Origin: Isoetes taiwanensis
Lineage: Eukaryota > Streptophyta > Lycopodiopsida > Isoetales > Isoetaceae
DNA: 64,000 nt
Assembly: GCA_021234155.1 (NCBI GenBank)
Contig: JAJEKV010000051.1
Location: forward strand, 8,516,105-8,580,104
Reading direction: 5' to 3'
Part shown: in pieces, positions 38,686 to 62,044 of the stretch
Position numbering within the stretch: position 1 is the stretch's first letter
How the letters are laid out: every line of letters begins with the position of its first letter
The notes under the pieces: generated by a model
What the model was told of the DNA's origin: nothing
The model's database searches: none
The model's input: the letters and a program-made list of their open reading frames with translations, nothing else
Translations under genes and position numbers: made by a program

Positions 38686-40351
38686 CTCTAAAGAAGGACA
38701 TCAGTTGTCAATAATGGAGTGGATTATGGTTGAAGAGTTGAAGAGTGAGTAGCACGTATATAGATCTGCATTGTGGACAAAATTATTTACCTTAACCGTC
38801 AAATCTTAGCAACTTAAAGTAACAGAGCTCCTGCTCAACTGACTTGTATCCTAAACACAAGAGTTTGTTATGCAGAATCCACGCACTTCCCAACCCATAT
38901 AATGAGCCCGCTCTATTGCTAGCGGACACAAATTCGCTGCCTCCTTGAATCCATGCACATCCTATTCTGGCTTCGGAGATCTTGGCATCTATGACTCACT
39001 GTCACTTTCGGCCCATGTAATCCTGTAGCCAACCATTATGCACTATAAAAAAACATTTCAAAGAATTATCTACTATGCAATGCATTCAACTGTATAATGT
39101 AAAACCAAATCTCAATACATTGAGGCATGTGCAATCTCAATACATTGTGGCATTGTACCTTATCTTTCAAAACCATTTGTCAAGGTCTTTGACCTATCTG
39201 AGAAGTGAGAGCAAATGTAGAAGCCATTTGCTGAGGTCGTTGACCCATCTAAGATAAAGAAAGATACAGGTGGAATAACTGTAGCCTATTCTGCAGGTGA
39301 ATCAATACAAAAGTTACTTCCTGAACAAAGAAAAAAGTGCTTAACAATTTAAATAAGATATAGATTATGCAAGGATCACATCCATGTACACATCTATAGT
39401 ATCTCTCAAAATCCGGTAAGCAGCAGGATTAATCCCCTCAAGCATCTAATCTACTATGGCTTTTAAGCAGCATTATTGCTCCTTCAAATCTGGCAAGGGA
39501 ATAAGCTTGATAAGGAAAAGAAACAGTCGATGTAGCCCGTTAGTGAAATCTAATATCTATGATGCAAAGAAGAAAACCGTCCAAGTTGACACCGTATTAG
39601 ATCCAACATTTTTCTTCGTCATTGCAGCATGCACGGTTCTGCATAAAACAATCAGTTTTCATAGATTAATATCTACGCTTGGTTGACCTTGCAATGCAGA
39701 ATTGTCCATCTTGACAAAAGAAAGATAGCTGAGACCATTCTTATTTTCTTCAAACAAAAGCGCCAGGGCATTGGAGGGATCTGATGTGGTTTTAGGGCTC
39801 TCAAGCTGTGCTTTTTAATTACTCGACTGAAGGCTCGTCAGCTGTGCTCTTAGATTGCTTGATGGTGGAATGATTTCTTGCCGAGTCTGTGTTTTCTGTG
39901 CTGGAGACGGTACAGACACATCAGTCCTTTGTTTCATCAACGAATTTTCTTCAAAAATACATCGGTTGTGGAGCAGTGATTCCAATTGCTATGCTATGGA
40001 TGGAGATATGATTGCTACAAGGGCGAGGTGAAGTGGAGTTGTACAATTAGAATCCTTGAAAACTGGGCAAGTTTCGCAGTCATATTGTTTTTTGTGCATA
40101 TGGCACGAAGGGCTTTCTTTGGTGAAAGAATTCCAGAGGAAGTTTCTTCCAGTTGCATGTGCGGGTTTTGTTTGCAAGGGGTATCTTGGGAGGCTATACT
40201 TTCGCACCATGCAAGTCTACATGGATGTGGCAGCTCATGTCAATCTGTTTTAGCTATTCTTTGATGTTGGGTTTTGGTTTCTCTATGTACAGAGCTTGTA
40301 TAAACACTGGTTGTTTGGGAAGCTTCTTTTTGAGGCTTCTTTTTAAAGCTG
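38686..40351 (-). pseudogene. Host-like duplicated unit, copy A (uninterrupted)
   Basis: This 1.67-kb stretch aligns end to end with the dismembered copy B (46925-46963, 47211-47236, 51719-52327, 60618-61575). On the minus strand it carries gene-like pieces (QTDVSVPSPA, LSFVKMDNSALQGQP, DLKEK-type blocks) with stops in every frame, while copy B has longer open segments. I do not recognise the protein. Its value is as the empty-site reference for four insertions in copy B. It ends at 40351, where truncated gag sequence begins. Confidence 0.7.
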
Positions 40352-40837
40352 CAAATAATGTGCGTCAAATGCCGTTTTAAAACTTTCCCAATCAGTGATC
40401 TTGGGATCACATTCTCGTCTGCCTTGCCACCATGCTTGGGCTTGATCTTTTAGATAGGTATCCATGGCTTGCAGTCTTTCCACATCTGTTGCCTGCACAC
40501 GTTCAAAGAACTTTTCCCACTGACTGATGAAGCTGACAACCTTGACAGGCTTTGTCTTTCCCCCTTTGAACGACGGCATGTCTACTTTCTCTAGCCATTT
40601 TCTCAGCTTAGGTGGCGGTGGCAGAGTTACTGGTGGAGGATCATTAGGCAGAGGAGGTTGCGAGGGCTGCAGATAAATATCTGGAAGGAAGCGATACAGA
40701 ATAGACAGCAATTCCACTTGCCTGTCATACTCTTGCTGATTGCTAGGCATAGGTAGTGCTAACTGGGATGCAATGTAGCTAGCATTAGACAAGGCTTGCT
40801 GGTATTGTGCTTCAGTAACATTGAAGCGTTGGGCCAT
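40352..40837 (-). pseudogene. gag, truncated copy
   Basis: The first 161 or so codons of the element's gag, beginning MAQRFNVTEAQYQQALSNAS, run up to FDAHYL and stop at the junction with host sequence at 40351. It lacks the second half of the gag domain and the zinc knuckle. It lies downstream of LTR1 and its primer site and so is the start of a third, deleted unit. Confidence 0.85.
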
Positions 40838-51713: not shown

Positions 51714-52705
51714 TGAAGAGTGAGTAGTAGGTGTATAGATTTGCATTGTGGACAAAATTATTTACCTTAGCCGTCAAATCTTAGCAACTTAAAGCAATAG
51801 AGCTCCTCCTCCACCGACTTGTATCCTATTGTTATGCAGAATCCACGCACTTCCCAGCCCACATAATAAGCCAGCTCTATTGCTAGCGGACACAAATCCA
51901 TTGCCTCCTTGAATCCATGCACATCCTATTTTGGCTTCTGAGATCTTGGCATCTATGACTCACTGTCACTATCTGCCCATGTAATCCTGCAGAGTAGCCA
52001 ACCATATGCACTATAAAAAAACATTACAAAGAATTATCTACTATGCAATGCGTTCAACTGTATAATGTAAAACAAAATCACAATACATTGTGGCATTGTA
52101 CCTTATTTTTCAAAACCATTTGTCAAGGTCTTTGACCTATCTAAGAAGTAGGAGAGCAAATGTAGAAGCCATTTGCCGAGGTCATTGACCCATCTAAGAC
52201 AAAGAAAGAATACAGGTGGAATAACTGTAGCCTATTCTGCAGGCGAACCAATACAAAAGTTACTTCCTGAACAAAGAAAAAAGTGCTTAACAATTTAAAT
52301 AAGATATAGGTTATGCAAGGATCACATTTAACAAAGTTGCATATTAAACGGGAGCAAATCATCGAAACGAGAGCGAAAGGAATATTCCTCAAATATTCCT
52401 TTTTTTTTTTTTTTAAAAAAGGGGGTAAAACGAGGTTAAAAAAAAAGATGCATGAAATTCTATTTTGACCCCCCCAAAAATGCTAATTTTTTTGTGCAAC
52501 GGAAGAATTGACTTTTTTAAAGTGTTATTTTTCTTAGCAAATAGAATGTTCTTGAAGTATATTTTACGAGAGAAACCCTAATTTCAGAGGATAAAATATT
52601 TAACAAAAAATTGAAGTTAGTCCGTAATTGAAACTGTAGTATTCTCAAAATTTGAAGATAGAATCTTCATATTCACATGCAAAATTTACAGTCTTTTTCT
52701 AAGAC

Positions 52706-53046
52706 TCAGTTATGTGCAAAAGTGTGAGGAGTGATGAAGGAGGGATCCAGGACGTCATCATGTTCATTTATGCCATCCTCATCACCTTCACTTCTTTCAC
52801 TGTCACTAGAGGAAGTGCTTGAGTTATCTTCCTCATCACTATCAACAGATGGTGTAGCATTGCCACCACCTTCTTCATCCTCTTCTTCATAATTACAAGC
52901 TTTTTTAAGCAAATTGATAGTCCTCTCATGAGACGCATTGTCGATTTCAATTTAAAATCATAGCACAATATAGTCACGTCATTAAGGATCAGCTCATCCC
53001 TACAACCCACCTTCTTGGACTTTCTCCCTTTTCCTTGGCTTCTCAT
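52706..53046 (-). pseudogene. Basic and acidic low-complexity C-terminal segments of the transposase-like gene
   Basis: One frame reads a Lys/Arg-rich stretch (RSQGKGRKSKKVGCRDELIL). A neighbouring frame reads EEEDEEGGG and DSDEEDNSSTSSSDSERSEG before the stop at 52706. It probably forms the end of the protein whose DUF7869 core lies at 53839-54337, but the connection passes through broken frames or introns. No enzymatic motif is present. Confidence 0.4.
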
Positions 53047-53838
53047 TTCTACTCATATCTACCTTCAAAAGCATTTTCTGAGCGTGTTGCAAGCCAATGA
53101 ATCTTGAGTTTAGTGACTGCCTTCCTTCCTCCTTGACTGTGTCAAGCACTTTTGCTATCCAAAAGGTCGACCTTTGTCATCCTCCCCGCTTGGAAGAGCA
53201 ATTAGCATACCCTTGGTAATTTCGTGGATATTACCTTGAGGCTCATTCCCGCGCCTTGGTCCGAGGTACATGACTCGATCCTCGCTCTTCTTTCATCGCA
53301 GGTGCTAATGTAGCATTGCTTTGACCTCGCTTGGTGCCGGGTTGATGGAAGGTGTTAAGCCATCCAAATGGTTCTTGCAACCGCTTTTTAGAGCTATATT
53401 TTTCACAACAATTTTCTGCTCGAGAAAGAAATTACTCCACCACATCCGATCTTCTTCTAAGAAGTACTTAAAGCTCGAGGAAATTCCATTTTCAATGGCT
53501 TTTAAGGATGACTCGGGGTACTTTTCTTCCGCTTGGACTCCTTAGGATTTTGAGAGGAAGTTGTTTCAAGACGCTCTATGAAGGAAGTGTCTGGAATATA
53601 TTTAAGGAAGCGTAATCCTCCGTGGACTCCAGTCCTTAGTTGTGGTATACTTCTTCCCTCAGAAGAAACTCGCCATCCTTCAAGTAGAACTTGATGTGAT
53701 GTTGAAAGGTGAGATCATTCAACTTGTTCACGCCTTTGTTCTCTCGTGGAACGCTTGAGAGAAAACAAACTCTCCTCAAATCAGCAGCTCTTTAAGAAGA
53801 TCGATCACCGGAGTGGGAGTGTAAGAATCTTCAATAAT

Positions 53839-54337
53839 TCAAACTAGTGTAGGAAGAGAGAAAGCCTTCTTCCTTCTAAGGCTACGTAAAAATCTGCTGA
53901 ACATTTGGTCAATTTGATCATGAGTGTGGCCTACAAGTAAGAAACCGAGCTTCACTTTTCTAAAGATCCCTAGCTCCACTAACATAGCACAGTATGCAAA
54001 GAGTGTTTGATTCTTGTTCTCCCTTGTAGTGTTGTCAAGTTGCGTGTAAAGTAATCGGTGGTAATTGCTCTTGCTCGCACAGGACCTTGTTAAGAATTGT
54101 AATTGTGAGGTTCGGGTCACCATGCAAGTTTGGATATGTCAAAAATACTTTGCACTTTAGACTTGCTTTGAAGACCATAGCTCCTACAAGGTGGACCTTA
54201 ACAAAACATTCCTCTGGCACATCTTTAGGAATGTTCAAGAAATGTGGTAGAGTAGTTTTTTTTTGGTCCATTCCATCAATCACAACAGACATATATTGCA
54301 GTGGACGTTCAAGAGCTTTTTTTCCGTGGTTTGGCAA
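53839..54337 (-). pseudogene. DUF7869-like core of a transposase-like protein
   Basis: Two adjacent minus frames encode one domain. The first has VVIDGMDQKKTTLPHF, a KVHLVGAMVF strand and HGDPNLTITILNKVL. The second has TQLDNTTRENKNQTLFAYCA, VELGIFRKVKLGFLLVGHTH and DQIDQMFSRF. Invariant acidic and polar positions (IDGMDQ, LDN..ENKN, GHTHDQID) are the signature of DUF7869 proteins, which occur in mobile-element-like genes of plants, algae, fungi and animals and whose motif pattern suggests an RNase H-like DDE fold. That mechanistic reading is inference. A frameshift near 54060 separates the two frames. Confidence 0.7.
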
Positions 54338-55109
54338 GCTTTCTTTCTCTCACGCTTGTTGTTCATTTATGTCGGCAAGGTTCTCGTTGCACAATATCTC
54401 AGAGAAGAAATAAGGTCAAAGCATTTTCTTTTAAAACAAGTGAGAGATTGGAGAACATGAGCTTACTTTTTTCGACCTGCCTTTGCGCTTTCTTTGACTT
54501 TTAATTTCGCAGACACCTTGAGCAAAATGTACATTCTATGTCTCCCGGGAATTTTCACTAAACCGAATTCACTTTTCCACAACCGGGTGAAGTGTGAGTA
54601 AGAGATGTGTCAAGCCGAGTGCAAGTGTCTTTGTACTCATTAAAACATCTTTTTTGGTGATGTTATCATTAAATGATACATGTTGTCGTTAGGGCCTTCT
54701 CACATGTTTTCTAAAATATTTCTCCATCCATGACACAAAGAAGAAGGGCATGCATGGTTACAACTCTTCTTGGTCCACAATGAACATCAATTGCTGGATT
54801 TTTGTCTAGTTTTTGTGTATTCTAGACATTCGGTGGACCCTAAACGGTGGACAACCATAAAGCATTTCGCAAACTTATTGACGGTTAATGTAGTGCAAGA
54901 AGGTGTTGCGGTCGGTCTTACATGATAGGCCATGTAGGCATTTCCGGGTCAGCCAATGTCATTGAACCAGTAGTTGTCTCTAATTGCTCGTAATTTAGAC
55001 ATGTTAAATTTGTTGATGCAACCCAATGAGCAAAGATTTACTTCTTAAAAGTCTTCTCATTTTATGCTCGCCCATAAGGTTTCTTCTTCTTTACAGGAGG
55101 AGCATGCTC

Positions 55110-55852
55110 TCAAACCATAATCCACCTTGAATTTCTTGGTGGACCGGCTAGAGAATGTGTAATCTCGCTGCACTTCGCTGGTGTCTTCATCTTCCTCAAG
55201 AGAGTTCTACTGGGGTGACCTCCTCCGCCCCTTAGTGGTGTGCTTGTAGAGGAGAATAAACCACGTGAAGCTGTAACCCTGATAAGGCGGAGGTGCAAAG
55301 TGTTGAATGAAGGAGATGGGCCACCATATGATGTGCCAAATAAAAGTTGTTGTAGCGCCTTCACAGTGGAGTTCGCTCAAACATATCTCTTATAGCAGAT
55401 CGAAATTCTACAAACCCATGTGTCACCACGCTTGTGTGAAGAGGAGTAGATGCCGCAGGTCGCCTTCATTTGTATTGAAATCGCGTGGTGGAGAAGCGAT
55501 GGAGAATCTCGCAGCCTTCGTAACGTGTTGTATTCCCCGCATGTGTAAGTGAAGATGGAGAAACAACAAACCACGGAGGTAGTCCGTTCAAAAATTTGCC
55601 GAGGTCGAGCCATTGTAGTGTCTGGGGATGGTACAAATGGTGGTGGAAGATTGCTACGCGGCAATAGGTGAGGCTTTGAAAGGAGGTGGCAGCCGGTTTC
55701 CCACCGACTTGGAGAGGGTTGGAAAGGTGGTGGCGCCTACTAGTTATCGGACTCCTGGTGTCTTCGAAGCAACAAAGACCTTGTCGAGGTAGGTGTTGAA
55801 GAAGCATCTCCGCCTTGTGTTCCATCCGAAGTAGAGGTACTTGGGCAAACAA
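55110..55852 (-). pseudogene. Proline/serine-rich N-terminal region of the transposase-like gene
   Basis: Minus frames here are rich in Pro, Ser and Thr, with LPPPFV repeated (about 55640 and 55860). They lie upstream of the DUF7869 core. No domain is recognised. A low-complexity N-terminal extension or 5' exons of the transposase-like gene is the simplest reading. 54340-55100 between it and the core is in broken frames (for example MSKLRAIRDNYWFND on the minus strand near 55000). Confidence 0.35.
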
Positions 55853-56011
55853 ATGGTGGTGGAAGTTTGTTCACGGGCGGTTAACCATGTCAAACAACCG
55901 CAAAAATTGTGGGCTTGTTACTAAGTCACAAGTCGATTGGACTAATGATGTTCGAGAATACAAATGCTATTCCTAATAGTATTTTGTGTGCAGATTTGCC
56001 GCAGGTGTGCA

Positions 56012-58740
56012 AAGATGTTATTCCGTAATACACTTGTCCAGTGTTTGGACAAGATGTATTCCAGATCACATAGAAAAACACAACCGATAAAGGGCTTACC
56101 TTTAAAAAGGAAAATCGATTTCGGGCCATGTGATTCCACTTTCAGAGATTTAGTCGCCAGCCCGAAGCTTCCGATCAATATACATTTGTCAGATTCGATT
56201 TACATAGCTTAAAACAATGGATGTGTAAGCATGTAAAGTACATAACACGCCTTTTCTTTTGTTTTCGATTTGATTTTTTTAGGCCAAAGTGTATTCCGTA
56301 TCACACTTTGCCCATCCGGGGCTAAGAATACACTTTTTTATTTTATGGCGCAAAGTGTATTCCGGAATACACTTTGCACTTGGCCAAGTGTAAAGTGTAC
56401 ACTTTGCACTTCACAGAAGGGCAAAGTGTATTCCGAATACACTTTTCAAGACGCAAAATACACTTTGCACTGGCAGATGTGCAAAGTGTAAGCAAACTTT
56501 GTATTCCAAAAGTGTACACGAATACACGTTTTTGTCTTTTTAGAACACTTGTTTTTGAGTCACACACTTTTTAGCTGAAATGCACCAATTTTTTAGGTTA
56601 AAATAACACTTTCGAGTCCAATTAAGGCACAAGAAATTGACTTAGAGTGACAATATTTTTGCTTGTTTTCCCGTCTTTTTTCTCGGGCCTTTAGGGCACA
56701 AGATTAGTAAATGTTATTCGAATACGCTGCTTGAAATTCTGTCTTTAACATGGTTGTTTTAAACCTTTTAGTGGCAGGGTGGAAGAAGGAAGCAAGAGGG
56801 CATCAAAGAAATCTCACAAGCCTAAGCGCCCACACCTCAAAAGCACATCACCGACACCGGACGAGCCTCGCTATTTACAAAAACTTTCAAACGCAATGGT
56901 TCAGAACTGTGGGTGCAGATGGAAAATACAAAGACACCGACGCTCTTGTACGCCCAGAAAAGTGCCGGGAACAAAAGGTACGCCGACTGAAGTTTGCAAA
57001 CCTTGGGACAATAAAAGATGTCTCCCAGGTTGCCGGACAAGGAGGTCAGGTGGGGAGCCCAAGGCTTCATTGTTGTGGACATCGCATTCTTTAGAATTGT
57101 CGCAGTGCAAACCACTGTGCACAATGCACAAATTCTTTTCACACTATCGACAAAACGAAGCATGTGGTTCAAGAATTAGACAAGTTTATTCCAAGACAAG
57201 CGAGGACTTTCCCCGTCGCTGAGTCCGAAAGCATCGGGGATGGAGAAAGGTCACAATCACCACCTTTCGCTAGTTATTCAGTGGAGGTCATCGATGGAGG
57301 TTCCTGTGAACAAGACGATTTAAGAACCCCCCGAGCGGCCAAAGAAACTTAGCAGCCAAGGGCAACCGGAGTCGCTAAAGAACCAAAAAGCTTAAAAAGT
57401 ACAAAGCCTTTGAAATTACGTAAGTCCCCGAGGAAAGCTCAAAAAAAAAAGGAAAAGGAAAAGCTCCTGGTTGCAATAAAGGAAAAGAAGGTTGATAAGA
57501 CCTCCAAAGAATGGAGGTTATTAATAGAGAAAAAATTTGTACAAGGGGTAATTTATCTTCCCCGCGGACTAGCATGAAGCTGCCCCCAAAGAATGAGTCC
57601 ATTTAAAGGCCCCTTCAAGTTCAAAAATTTATGCCGACCACTTAAGGAACTTGAAGGACGTAATTAGGAGCAATCCAAATGCTCATGTGGCCCCAATAGT
57701 TGTCCTTGTTGATGTGGAGCAAAGGCAAAACCCCCGTGAATATGACAGAGAAAACGCTAAAACATACACTCACTACGCCTTGGGAGGAAATCATAGCTTC
57801 AAGGCAAGAAGGCACCTGACAAAGAAAAGAATAACCCTGTGTACCTCTCTCGCCTTGTGCTAGCTTTATCGGGTCTCACCGACGAGGAAGCAAAAATCGC
57901 TGCCAACACCCATAATGCCGACAACGAGTACAAATTAAAGATGAGCTTCTCGCCGACAAGATCCGATTTATGCACAGAGAGTACATGATTTTAAGGAAAA
58001 ATATGGAGAAGATTTGAAGAAACCGCATACTCAAGTAGAATCAAGGAAGCGCATACCGTGGAGTGCCGCTTTGGCACGATGAAGCTAATAAATGGCGCCT
58101 CTCATACCGCATGACAACCGGTTTCAACTAGCCTTCAGAGACGGCAGGTAAGTTTTTTTGTATTCGAATAACCATGCGTAAAACTAACCCCGCTTGTTAC
58201 CGCGGCAGATATGGGACCTACAAAACGAAATTTTTACCATGTTCGAAAGCGTGGTGAATTAAAAAGTAAAGGAAAGGTCTCGTAAAAGAAGAAAGGTTCT
58301 CGATGTCCCCAAGAAGGAAATAACCATTCCGAGAGAAATGCGTGGCTTTACGCATATGGACATACTAGAAAGGCTATTGCGTAAGGTCGTTGATAAGGAG
58401 TTTACGTCAAGAAATGTCCAAGGAACCGCAGACAAGTAAGAACGATGTAACTTTCATTTAAATTTTCCTTCCCAGAGCAAGAAATGTTTTTAAAATACGC
58501 TCGGCTCACCGCGTTCGAGATGCCTTTCAAACACACTTTTTGTTTTTCGGGAAGCCAAGGTGTATTCGAATACACTTTGGCTTCGTGGGTAATCCAATGT
58601 GTATTCCGTATCACATTTTGGTTTATTAAGCCAAAGCAAAAGTGTATTCCGAATACACTTTTGTTTTGAACGCGAAAGCAAAAGTGTATTCCGTAATACA
58701 CTTTTTGTTAAAGTTAAAAGTGTATTCCGAATACACTTTT
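56012..58740. repeat. Array of ~9 dispersed palindromes, core GTGTATTCCGGAATACAC
   Basis: Copies lie at about 56012, 56286, 56351, 56422, 58552, 58594, 58637, 58678 and 58716. The copy at 56351-56376 is a perfect 26-bp palindrome (CAAAGTGTATTCC and its complement). That at 58637-58663 has 13-bp arms around one base. That at 58552-58583 has 16-bp arms with one mismatch. One group lies in the divergent spacer between the two genes, the other in a probable intron of the methyltransferase gene. Confidence 0.88.
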
Positions 58741-60262
58741 GCTTTTGGCTTGTAAGACAAAAAGTTATTCCTAATATACTTTGGCTTTTTCTTGGTGCTT
58801 TCGCCTCCTAGAAAACAATACTCAAATTGTTCAAATGTTCTTGACTTCCAAAATTTTAAAAATGTTATTACGTACAAACATGTTTAATGGAGCAGCTTAA
58901 ACGCGGGATACGGGGGATGATGTAAAGAGCTCTATCCCATAGCAACTTCCGACGAGTTTATTATTCAATGCGCCCAAATTTTGAGGGTCGGGTACGCCTT
59001 TTTCCCTGCTTTTAATGTTTTTCTTTTGTGATGCCCGCCTAACATCATTTACTAACAGAGCAAGAAGAAGAACAAGGACCTACCGTAAGGTTTTATGCAC
59101 CGGTAAGGACAAAAAGAGAAGAGAGGACTCTAGCGGATAGGCGATTGTTGATGTTGAGCCGTCCGACTACTTATGGAGAGGTTTTCCATGTTTGATCAAA
59201 AAATAACTTTTATTCTATCGCTCATGGGGACCGCACTAAGTTGGCTGGAAGTATAAAGCCACAAGATTTTACTTTGGTCATAGCAGATTTGCCGTGATGG
59301 GTTTAAGTGAAGGATAGCCGCCACGACGATCAACCATTCAAAAAAACTCAATTTAATGCTTTGCCGATGGAATTAAGCAGTGTTACCACAAAGAAAACAC
59401 CGGCGCCTTGTTGTGTTCCACTCAAAGATGCAATCCGGACTTGTGGAAGCTACTTTCAAGAACCACTTCGGTTCTCCCGTGTGTTTGGTTATAAAAATAT
59501 GGTCCGTGAGTTCTCTTCAAGTTTTGAGTCATTGTTGCGCTTGTAACTCGCCATGTTCTATTCTCGAATACGATTTACTATTCTCGAATACGATCTTGCA
59601 GTGTACAAAACTAATATTAACTACCATGGTGGAGGACCGAGGTCGGCCGAAAGCAAGGTTGAGTATCTCCATGTAGCTTACCGGAGTTTCACCGAAGCGC
59701 ACTCATGGAGCACTTTTAACACGCTGTACCGCCAAAATTTTTCTAACGCCCTAGAGTTCAAAGATTACTACGTAAGCTCCGGGACCCAAGTGCACAAGGC
59801 AAAATTGTGAATCATTACCAGAAGCCACGGAAGTTAATTAACCATATTTCGGATATGTTTTCACGCCCGTGAGATTGGGTCCTAGATGCTTTCTCTGGCT
59901 CTGGTACAACAATAGCATGTACAACAATAGCATGTACAACAATAGTCGCTGACATTGACAAAGAGGTCAGACTTTATTAAGATGCGATTGTCCGCTTCTA
60001 CCAACTCTACCGATGAAAATCAAGAGTTGGGAGCCAAATCATCATCGATTTTGCCAAGATGACATCTTTCGAGATACAACCTCCTTTCACAAGCTCTCGA
60101 AGATGAAGCTACCTTTGCAGAGCTCAAAGAAGTAGCTCGCTACTATTCCTCAAGAGACCGTTGACACCAACATAGATAAAACAGTGACAAAGGAGCAAAC
60201 TGTAGAGATAGAAAAAGGTTAGACGAGCAAACCACACACTGAAGACTTCGATTTAGACCTCT
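56770..60262 (+). pseudogene. Multi-exon gene ending in a DNA N4/N6-methyltransferase domain
   Basis: Coding pieces run left to right with introns: exons around 56770-57360 and 57650-58143; an intron 58143-58207 (GTAAGT...GCAG); an exon 58208-58436 (IPREMRGFTHMDILERLL) with a GTAAGA donor; then palindrome-containing intron sequence, and an acceptor near 59059. The enzyme domain follows: FYSIAHGDRTKLAGSIKP, then FTLVIADLP (motif IV, about 59230-59297), later NHYQKPRKLINHISDMF and WVLDAFSGSGTT (motif I with the QKP block, about 59811-59916). Motif IV before motif I is the beta-type order of PF01555 methyltransferases, which methylate adenine N6 or cytosine N4 in DNA using S-adenosylmethionine. 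A stop follows ADLP where P-Y/W-G is expected, and several other frames are broken. Confidence 0.72.
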
Positions 60263-60572
60263 GAGTTAGTTTTTGCTAAATTATTTACTACTGGCTATAA
60301 AATAATGCCATATTTGATGTACTAAAAGAAATTAATAATTTTTTATTTCTATTTTTTGCGTTTTTTTGACGTCCTCGAATTCATAGTAATATTCCTGGTG
60401 TATTAATGTCTGGAATTTTGCCATTTCCAAGTGCTCTATTCTACAAATGCAAGATCATCACTTCAAAAAGCCCAAAATGCACGATAAAATATTTTGTTTC
60501 ACTTCAAATCCCCAACTTTTTTTGAAAATGATCATTTTTTAAATCCTGGTGTTTTTTTTAAGGGAATCTTTG

Positions 60573-60600
60573 AAACGGGAGTGATGCAACACTCCCGTTT
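60573..60600. repeat. Perfect hairpin at the right end of the 8.3-kb element
   Basis: AAACGGGAGTG (60573-60583), loop ATGCAA, CACTCCCGTTT (60590-60600). The right arm is part of the terminal inverted repeat, so the end carries the repeat core twice, in opposite orientations. The left end has only a weak equivalent (AAACGGGAG...AAACGAGAG). Confidence 0.85.
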
Positions 60601-61575
60601 AATTTGCAATCGTGTTATCTATGTACACATCTATAGTATCTCTCAAAATCTAGTAAAGAGCAGGATTAATCCCCTCAAGCATCTAATCTACTATGGCTTT
60701 TAAGCAGCACTATTTCTCCTTCAAATCTGGCAAGGGAATAAGCTTGATAAGGAAAAGAGACAGTCGATGCAACTCGTTAGTGATATCTAATATCTGGGAT
60801 GCAAAGAAGAAAACTATCCAAGTTGACACCTTCTTAGATCCAACATTTTTCTTCATCATCGTAGCATGCACGGTTCTGCATAAAACAATCAGTTTTCATA
60901 GATTAATATCTACACCTGGTTGACCTTGCAATGCTGAATTGTCCATCTTAATAAAAGAAGGATAGCTTAAACCATTATTATTATCTTCAAACAAAAGAGT
61001 CAGGGTATTGGAGGGATCTAATGCGGTTTTAGAGCTCTCAAGCTGTGCTTTAGGATTGCTTGATCGGAGGCTCATCAGCTGTGCTCTTTGATTGCTTGAT
61101 GGTAGAACGGTTTTTTTCCGAGTCTGTGTTTTCAGTGCAGGAGACGGTATAGACACATCAATCATTTGTTGCATCAACAAATTTTCTTCGAAAATACATC
61201 GGTTGTGGAGCAATGGTTCCAATTGCTATGCTATGGGTGGAGATATGACTGCTACAGAGGCGAGGTGAAGTGGAGTTATACAATTGGAATCCTTGAAAAC
61301 TGAGCAGGTTTTGTAGTCATGCTGTTTTTTGTGCACATGGCCTGAAGGGCTTTCTTTGGTGAAAGGATTCCGGAGGAAGTTTCTTCCAGTTGTATGTACG
61401 GGTCTTGTCTGCATGGGGCATCTTGAGAGGTTATACTTTTGCACCGTGCAAGTCTGACATGGCTATGGTAGTTCATGTCAATCTGTTTTAGCTCTTCTTT
61501 CTGTTGAGTTTTTGGTTTCTCTATGTACAGAGCTTGTGTAGACACTGGTTGTTTGTGAGGCTTCTTCTTGAGGCT

Positions 61576-62044
61576 TCTTGGTGAAGCTGCTTACATGTAA
61601 TTTCGAGTTTCTACATGTAATTTCATTTCTGTCTTATAGTTCTGTACATGTACCATTGTCTTGTAAAGAATGTACTTTGGTAGTTGAGTTACGTTTGCAA
61701 TGTCAATGCAATTTCATCCAATCAATCATGTATTTGTGTTTCTCTTCATTGCATATATGTATGCGTATGAATACATGTATATGGAGCACAGACTTCTACA
61801 TGGGTGTGATGTGGAAATTCCTCAATCCTTCATTTGTCAAATTCATGGAATTATGTGAGGATCCAATGATCCAAAGTGTGCAATACGGAGTGCATAGATC
61901 CAAAAACTATATTATCTTGACAAGAAATTTATCACGGCGGCCAAGGCCGCCGTGAACATTGCTCTTCATTCGTCTCATATACGTGTTTCAAAAAATACAG
62001 GATTTGAACCTGCAATTTCTCACCTTATGTCTAGAGAAAAAAAA
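61576..62044. other. Stretch right of copy B with a GC palindrome
   Basis: CACGGCGGCC AA GGCCGCCGTG forms a 22-bp near-perfect palindrome at 61933-61954 in AT-rich DNA. A 125-codon frame (61578-61955, plus) ends in it and is unrecognised. A tRNA-like T-arm (GCAGGTTCAAATCCTG on the minus strand, about 62010) is isolated. Confidence 0.45.

Follow-up and report, generated by a model that had tools for sequence, protein, structure and literature searches.

The stretch of Isoetes taiwanensis DNA studied here raises the question of whether a plant transposon can carry, and make use of, a DNA methyltransferase of its own. The stretch (hereafter, the window) comprises 64,000 nucleotides of contig JAJEKV010000051.1 (positions 8,516,105 to 8,580,104, forward strand). 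A first-pass annotation had described an ~8.3-kb block within it as one insertion with imperfect inverted ends, holding divergent DUF7869 and DNA methyltransferase halves. Both points were borne out when the block was compared with sister copies elsewhere in the genome, where the two genes recur together. The block belongs to an abundant family of DNA transposons, of which it is a decayed, dead copy, and it is almost certain that the family includes a composite autonomous element with both genes.

The insertion and its relatives in the genome

The element is a single insertion at positions 52330-60616 (8,287 bp), with AACA...TGTT ends that were set by comparison with other copies, whose lengths range from 8.0 to 8.7 kb. 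It is bounded by 25-bp terminal inverted repeats, namely AACAAAGTTGCATATTAAACGGGAG on the left (52330-52354, plus strand, beginning AACA) and AACACGATTGCAAATTAAACGGGAG on the minus strand on the right (60592-60616); from the window alone, the inverted ends span 52329-52354 and 60592-60617 (26 bp, 85% identity). The host segment around the element is duplicated ~13 kb away (51714-52327 with 38739-39381, and 60617-61590 with 39380-40352; 88-89% identical) and, since this paralogous copy of the flanks is without the element, it supplies an empty site. Such an empty copy had been claimed at 39398-39415; it does exist, but the true site, ATCC, lies slightly to the left, at 39380-39383. The target-site duplication in the window is an imperfect 4 bp, with a decayed ATTT on the left (52326-52329) and ATCT on the right (60617-60620). 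A 2-bp duplication, the first reading of the window, was dropped because comparison with other copies fixes the length at 4 bp: 18 of the 21 elements for which both ends were found are flanked by a perfect 4-bp duplication, whose sequence differs among them (CTGT, ATGA, ATAT, AAAA, AAAG, and others), the exceptions being the window copy, L009, and L030 (loci cut from the genome carry L numbers). In L009 (111-3488), the methyltransferase end is present as an inverted duplicate with its flanks mirrored too, either as a fold-back element or as an assembly artifact.

We searched the I. taiwanensis genome (1,658,258,908 bases in 1,110 contigs) for the termini, as the first-pass annotation had proposed, and at ≤2 mismatches found 1296 matches to the end pattern on each strand, versus 56 and 63 for the reversed control. 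One locus, L001, matches the window element end to end (85.5%). Profile searches gave 1,444 first-look candidates for PF01555 (methyltransferase) and 9,910 for PF25273 (DUF7869), rough numbers that are not comparable with each other; 150 of each were scored, and all 150 of the PF01555 matches were above the cut-off. Between the two lists of 150 scored matches, we counted 24 DUF7869/methyltransferase pairs ≤20 kb apart, against 0.54 expected under uniform placement, of which 22 are divergent and 17 are separated by 4.9-6.2 kb.

Individual loci agree with these counts. Thirteen were chosen for a methyltransferase match, 7 of them lying next to a listed end and 6 having a long open frame. Ten of the 13 hold more of the DUF7869 protein than a remnant; L017, which has suffered a deletion, keeps a C-terminal DUF7869 remnant, and L006 and L007 have no DUF7869 pieces within the stretch cut. 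Seven more were chosen for a strong DUF7869 match with no listed methyltransferase neighbor (5 by score, 2 by a long open frame). Four of these (L018, L019, L021, and L024) hold the ParB-like part described below and both methyltransferase pieces, L023 holds the N-terminal methyltransferase piece only, and L020 and L022 hold no methyltransferase pieces, family B queries included; the aligned stretches of the latter two share 87-92% identity with L021, a copy that has the gene. Thus, the genes are not confined to separate loci, as would be expected had the block been a chance nest, and most sampled copies carry DUF7869 and the ParB-like/methyltransferase gene head to head.

The copies fall into three families. 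Family A comprises the window copy, L001-L005, L012-L017, L023, and L024, plus the partial copies L006 and L007; family B comprises L018 and L019; and family C comprises L021, L022, and probably L020, with L031-L033 assigned by palindrome (see below). Identity to family A in the DUF7869 core is 70-72% for families B and C. In the ParB-like part it is 51-53% for family B and 50-62% for the readable stretches of L031-L033. The ends of family C, AACARAGTTTAAAATGAAAC, are complete in L021 (31 bp, duplication AAGT) and resemble those of family A, AACAAGRTTGCANATTAAACGGGAG; the ends of family B were not found within the stretches cut. The two family B copies are ~92% identical to each other over 7 kb, closer than the family A copies that were compared with the window element. 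Despite this sequence divergence, all three families keep both genes in divergent orientation, although the methyltransferase of L021 is degenerate, and by this comparison the DUF7869/methyltransferase partnership is old.

The two proteins and the selection on them

The broken DUF7869 gene, which encodes the presumed transposase, occupies 52889-55137 on the minus strand, as judged from the PF25273 match, tblastn with sister-copy pieces, and alignment. It can be divided into a C-terminal part (52889-53838), the DUF7869 core (PF25273; 53842-54403), and an N-terminal part (54456-55137). The profile checks that had been recommended for PF01555 and DUF7869 both returned matches, the former in sister copy L013 and the latter in the window, where PF25273 matches two overlapping broken frames (E 2.9e-31 and 3.4e-6); frameshifts and stops break both genes of the window copy. 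Two motifs, QLDN-T-RENKNQ and GHTHDQIDQ, are invariant in 8 aligned DUF7869 sequences, and VVIDGMD is kept in the readable ones. The 8-sequence core alignment was made without L012 and L021; the motif alignment retained L019, L021, and L024 with X at breaks, and L012 likewise in the DUF7869 set only; and one further protein alignment was made without L019, L021, and L024. No mention of DUF7869 was found in the open-licence literature, and no relatives were confirmed in viral_contigs, by a scan that reaches mainly close relatives, so that absence there is weak evidence. Sola1 transposases have an acidic catalytic triad within an RNase H fold, and Sola1 elements duplicate a 4-bp target. The Sola-type features seen here are the 4-bp duplications (18/21) and terminal inverted repeats, which measure ~25 bp in family A copies and, for family C, 31 bp in L021; for Sola2, AT-rich 4-bp target duplications have been described (PMC3627910). 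The transposon family is probably Sola1-like.

The second gene lies on the plus strand and encodes, in order, an N-terminal part (56870-57213; located by tblastn, with no Pfam family matched in the sister copy), a ParB-like part with a GGNHSFKAR motif (57624-58073; located by tblastn and by the weak ParB matches of sister copies), a catalytic part (59091-59475), and an S-adenosylmethionine (SAM)-binding part with an FSGSGTT motif (59607-60137; PF01555 in sister copies). In the window the gene is degenerate, and a stop sits at the catalytic motif. Its pieces nevertheless align to sister copy L013 with E values down to 3e-36, and L013 itself matches PF01555 with an E of 2.9e-17 (63.8 bits, versus a cut-off of 26.7).

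The usual catalytic motif of N6/N4 methyltransferases is [D/N/S]PP[Y/F/W], and N6-adenine enzymes usually have the acidic residue. In the Isoetes protein the motif reads ADLPYG in five family A copies and ADIPYG in L024, L018, and L019, while L021 is frameshifted there; the acidic residue, one P, and the Y are retained and the first P is replaced. The best relatives of the C-terminal part among solved structures are the adenine methyltransferases CcrM, MboIIA, and RsrI, with cytosine-N4 enzymes far lower (E 0.03). A rotifer PF01555 enzyme also has its catalytic motif ahead of the SAM-binding motif (PMC8885841), and the rotifer N4-cytosine enzyme carries SPPY (PMC11065753). Given the acidic residue in the one and SPPY in the other, our guess is that N6-methyladenine is the likelier predicted product.

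The ParB-like part has an invariant YVLGG-[NT]-HS motif in 7 aligned sequences. Among 7 members examined, the NCBIfam ParB profile TIGR03764 matches 4 (best E 2.5e-4, far below cut-off) and DUF6551 matches 5, below cut-off (best E 0.0016); there is also a match to phrog_1033 (E 0.031). As these matches are weak and none is over a curated cut-off, we write "ParB-like" rather than ParB, a weakly founded label for which the agreement among the matches and the published description of an algal protein (see below) are the grounds. No relatives of the ParB-like part were found in genome_contigs or phages and none were confirmed in viral_contigs, by scans that reach mainly close relatives, and their absence is weak evidence. 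A donor for the methyltransferase could not be named, since the best-ranked phage match is only 29.9% identical over 69% of the query.

Between copies of family A the proteins have changed little, even though synonymous sites approach saturation. For the SAM-binding part, omega (the ratio of nonsynonymous to synonymous divergence, dN/dS) is finite in 17 of 21 within-family pairs and falls at 0.02-0.06 in 16, the outlier being the young pair L015-L006 (0.30). For the DUF7869 core it is 0.04-0.05 in 5 of 6 pairs, and 0.11 in the young pair L023-L024. For the N-terminal part, omega is 0.16-0.32 in the 6 of 10 pairs with a finite value. The proportions of nonsynonymous (pN) and synonymous (pS) differences are 0.07-0.12 and 0.74-0.89 in the ParB-like part, and 0.03-0.16 and 0.46-0.94 in the catalytic part, each with one finite omega of 0.04. 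Judged by these estimates, the SAM-binding part appears about as constrained as the DUF7869 core.

Palindrome arrays and gene-less derivatives

Two arrays of palindromes accompany the genes. In the window, array 1 (56286-56530; GTGTATTCCGGAATACAC type, degenerate) lies between the two genes, and array 2 (58560-58783; GTGTATTCCGGAATACAC type) lies in a presumed intron between the ParB-like and catalytic parts. Sites of the GTGTATTCCGGAATACAC type are found in these two places across family A, and in both of them in 11 of the 12 copies with both genes (the window, L001-L005, L012-L016, and L024). Of the 131 site-to-site distances below 110 bp in the loci searched, 95 measure 41 or 42 bp. Genome-wide, the 21-base form of the site, AAGTGTATTCCGAATACACTT, has 1007 and 1014 matches on the two strands, largely at the same places, at ≤2 mismatches, as against 1 and 0 for the reversed control. 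We also compared, among the matches listed, 55 exact palindromes (contigs up to C792) with 100 exact ends (up to C856): 36 of the 55, as a raw count, lie ≤10 kb inside one of the ends, and 29 of these 36 are 1.9-2.03 or 4.0-4.43 kb from the end, while 17 have no listed end within 10 kb and 2 lie only outside an end.

The family A palindrome is not present in L018-L022. Instead, the same two places hold GTATGAATTCATAC in family B (L018 3873-4521 and 6783-6995; the center varies among sites) and GTATAAATTTATAC in family C (30 sites in L021 at ≤2 mismatches). All three families have a GTAT-N6-ATAC frame in common and differ in the central six bases (main centers TCCGGA, GAATTC, and AAATTT). Family C has further sites in 4 of 4 copies (L021 and L031-L033), either between the catalytic and SAM-binding parts or just ahead of them. 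No palindrome of the GTAT-N6-ATAC kind was seen in the inverted ends of the copies examined. A different dense palindromic array (AAATGGCGCA..TGCGCCATTT) occupies the position of the methyltransferase half in L022 (810-1345 and 2986-3116), a family C copy.

The family C 18-mer, CGGTATAAATTTATACCG, has 4,415 matches in the genome and the family B 16-mer has 13, with none for either control, and family C is perhaps the largest of the three families. Among the matches listed, CGGTATAAATTTATACCG is often clustered at ~2 kb intervals. As a forward test, we picked L031-L033 from those matches by two family C site clusters ~2 kb apart, leaving out a fourth such place (C18). In all three, ParB-like and SAM-binding pieces are present and are oriented divergently to a piece of the DUF7869 protein, and L032 has every piece except the methyltransferase N-terminal one. 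In L031 (6022-6979), a DUF7869-protein N-terminal piece is followed on the other strand by a second methyltransferase N-terminal piece, in a nested or rearranged arrangement.

In nine loci (L008, L010, L011, and L025-L030) the ends are those of family A and none of the protein pieces finds a match; L025-L030 were chosen by their similarity to L010. Palindromes lie towards both ends in 7 of the 9; in L026 only one end falls within the stretch cut, and L008 carries three sites close to a single end. The resemblance of these gene-less loci to the autonomous form lies mainly in the arrays and in ~250 bp of each terminus; L010 shares a further ~320 bp, 69% identical to L004 just behind the methyltransferase N-terminal piece of that locus. 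Elsewhere in the window, a ~150-bp repeat (2026-2173) is 79% identical to part of L010 (3998-4146), which shares about the same stretch with L007 (4244-4386).

Proposed role, alternatives, and known systems

Taken as a whole, these observations are best explained, with moderate probability, by a two-gene transposon that recognizes itself through its palindromes and uses its methyltransferase for self-marking or for the regulation of transposition. The DUF7869 protein would move the element by cut and paste, as the inverted ends and target duplications lead us to infer. The ParB-like/methyltransferase protein would bind the GTAT-N6-ATAC palindromes of its own family, a proposal that we regard as evenly balanced. 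The methyltransferase would mark the DNA of the element, most likely at N6-adenine, and the mark would signify self, whereby the element might escape or relieve host silencing, or have its transposition tuned; the self-marking or anti-silencing role is put forward tentatively, at rather less than an even chance. Plants are said to have lost the AMT1-6mA (N6-methyladenine) pathway (PMC12695648), and against that background a 6mA mark would stand out. The fullest version is more doubtful: a vascular-plant epigenetic system of self-recognition, in which a ParB-like/N6-adenine methyltransferase would read GTAT-N6-ATAC iterons and write a bacterial-type mark on its own family, separate self-addresses would let families coexist, and gene-less derivatives would be served in trans.

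Several points count against these interpretations. Binding and methylation are predictions from sequence. The ParB-like part has no Pfam ParB match, no match over any curated cut-off, and no relevant solved structure; motif IV is D-L/I-P-Y instead of DPPY, which makes N6-adenine a guess. Saturation affects many of the dS values, which are undefined for many pairs, and the selection estimates come from stretches with readable frames, a choice that biases them towards conservation. With regard to the arrays, the second is missing from L014 and the first consists of one site in L024, and tandem duplication alone could explain the regular spacing; helical phasing is not claimed, as 12- and 9-bp periods likewise score when phasing is tested. 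In the forward test, no catalytic part was matched in L033, where the cut stretch also ends within the DUF7869 core, and L031, which appears rearranged, holds no piece of the DUF7869 protein but the N-terminal one. Finally, 8 of the 9 gene-less loci are interrelated, six having been chosen for that, so that their retention of the arrays represents one history and not nine independent ones.

Of the alternatives, one keeps the enzyme at work for the element: the methyltransferase would regulate transposition itself, for example by coupling cutting or transposase expression to replication, with the palindromes as regulatory sites and no role in host silencing. The same anatomy and selection data fit this idea, as does the position of the arrays, some between the divergent genes and others within the methyltransferase gene; against it, no such palindrome was seen in the inverted ends. 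We consider it unlikely as it stands, but the present data do not separate regulation of transposition from anti-silencing. The palindromes might, instead, serve the DUF7869 protein or host factors, as promoter or chromatin sites unrelated to the ParB-like/methyltransferase protein. Since DUF7869 and the methyltransferase diverge together between families, covariation cannot tell which of them reads the sites; yet transposases usually bind inverted ends, where the palindromes were not seen, and sites also lie inside the methyltransferase gene, which makes this explanation quite unlikely.

DNA transposons do capture genes, and L020 and L022 are without the methyltransferase, as might be expected if it were a passenger captured by one family and useless to the element. 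That possibility is made very improbable by the low omega among family A copies, the same layout in diverged families, and the 87-92% identity of L020 and L022, where aligned, to L021, which has the gene. Nothing was found in favor of a chance nest of two unrelated elements, which is rejected by whole-length twins such as L001 and by the pair counts (24 against 0.54, 22 of them divergent and 17 at 4.9-6.2 kb) and has practically no probability left.

The first-pass annotation knew of no described plant family with this layout. That statement did not survive a search of the literature, as the layout is already in print for a Sola1 element of a brown alga. Sola1-1_Ec32 of Ectocarpus encodes, on the strand opposite to and beside its transposase, a 1,104-amino-acid protein with ParB-like and N4C/N6A methyltransferase domains, which its authors suggest binds and marks the element's own DNA (PMC12477816). 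The likeness lies in the opposite-strand ParB-like/methyltransferase gene next to a transposase; the differences are in size and host (21.5 kb in a brown alga versus 8.0-8.7 kb in a lycophyte). Similar transposon proteins are reported from green and red algae (Iyer 2011; Petroll 2025, both as cited by PMC12477816) and, with that paper describing the one and citing the others, the kind must be regarded as known. The stem "palindrom" is absent from the main text of the Ectocarpus paper (PMC12477816). No land-plant transposon bearing a methyltransferase was found in the listed titles and abstract openings of open-licence papers (plants, lycophytes, and algae; Sola in lycophytes), and "Sola" is absent from the main text of the I. 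taiwanensis genome paper (PMC8566536). What is added here is an extension of the algal observation to a land plant at high copy number, evidence from selection that the methyltransferase serves the element, and candidate target sites named for each family; the family-specific palindrome arrays look new.

Bacterial-type DNA methyltransferases are found elsewhere in eukaryotes, for instance as the PF01555 enzyme N4CMT of bdelloid rotifers and the 4mC (N4-methylcytosine) methyltransferase of Marchantia, which is mentioned in the same paper; these are host genes and are not described there as genes of transposons, and "ParB" is absent from the main text (PMC8885841). N4CMT also differs in its SPPY motif (PMC11065753), as opposed to ADLPYG in the Isoetes protein. 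Mariner elements of giant viruses do carry a methyltransferase beside their transposase, although both the transposase superfamily and the methyltransferase families are other ones (PMC3627910). The general idea that transposons mark their own DNA becomes testable in Isoetes with existing nanopore reads, which went into the genome assembly (PMC8566536), if the raw signal was kept.

The transposase and VANC proteins of VANDAL elements are of other kinds than the proteins of the Isoetes element, and the likeness that we propose is one of function only, namely anti-silencing. In Arabidopsis, VANDAL elements encode a sequence-specific factor, VANC, that acts on family-specific repeated motifs (PMC5735166, PMC10398659); these motifs are repeated in non-coding parts of the element and differ between related families, but they are not palindromes, and no methyltransferase activity is described (PMC5735166). 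If the self-marking proposal is true, the problem that Arabidopsis VANDAL elements solve with VANC would have been solved a second time in Isoetes, by a different chemistry.

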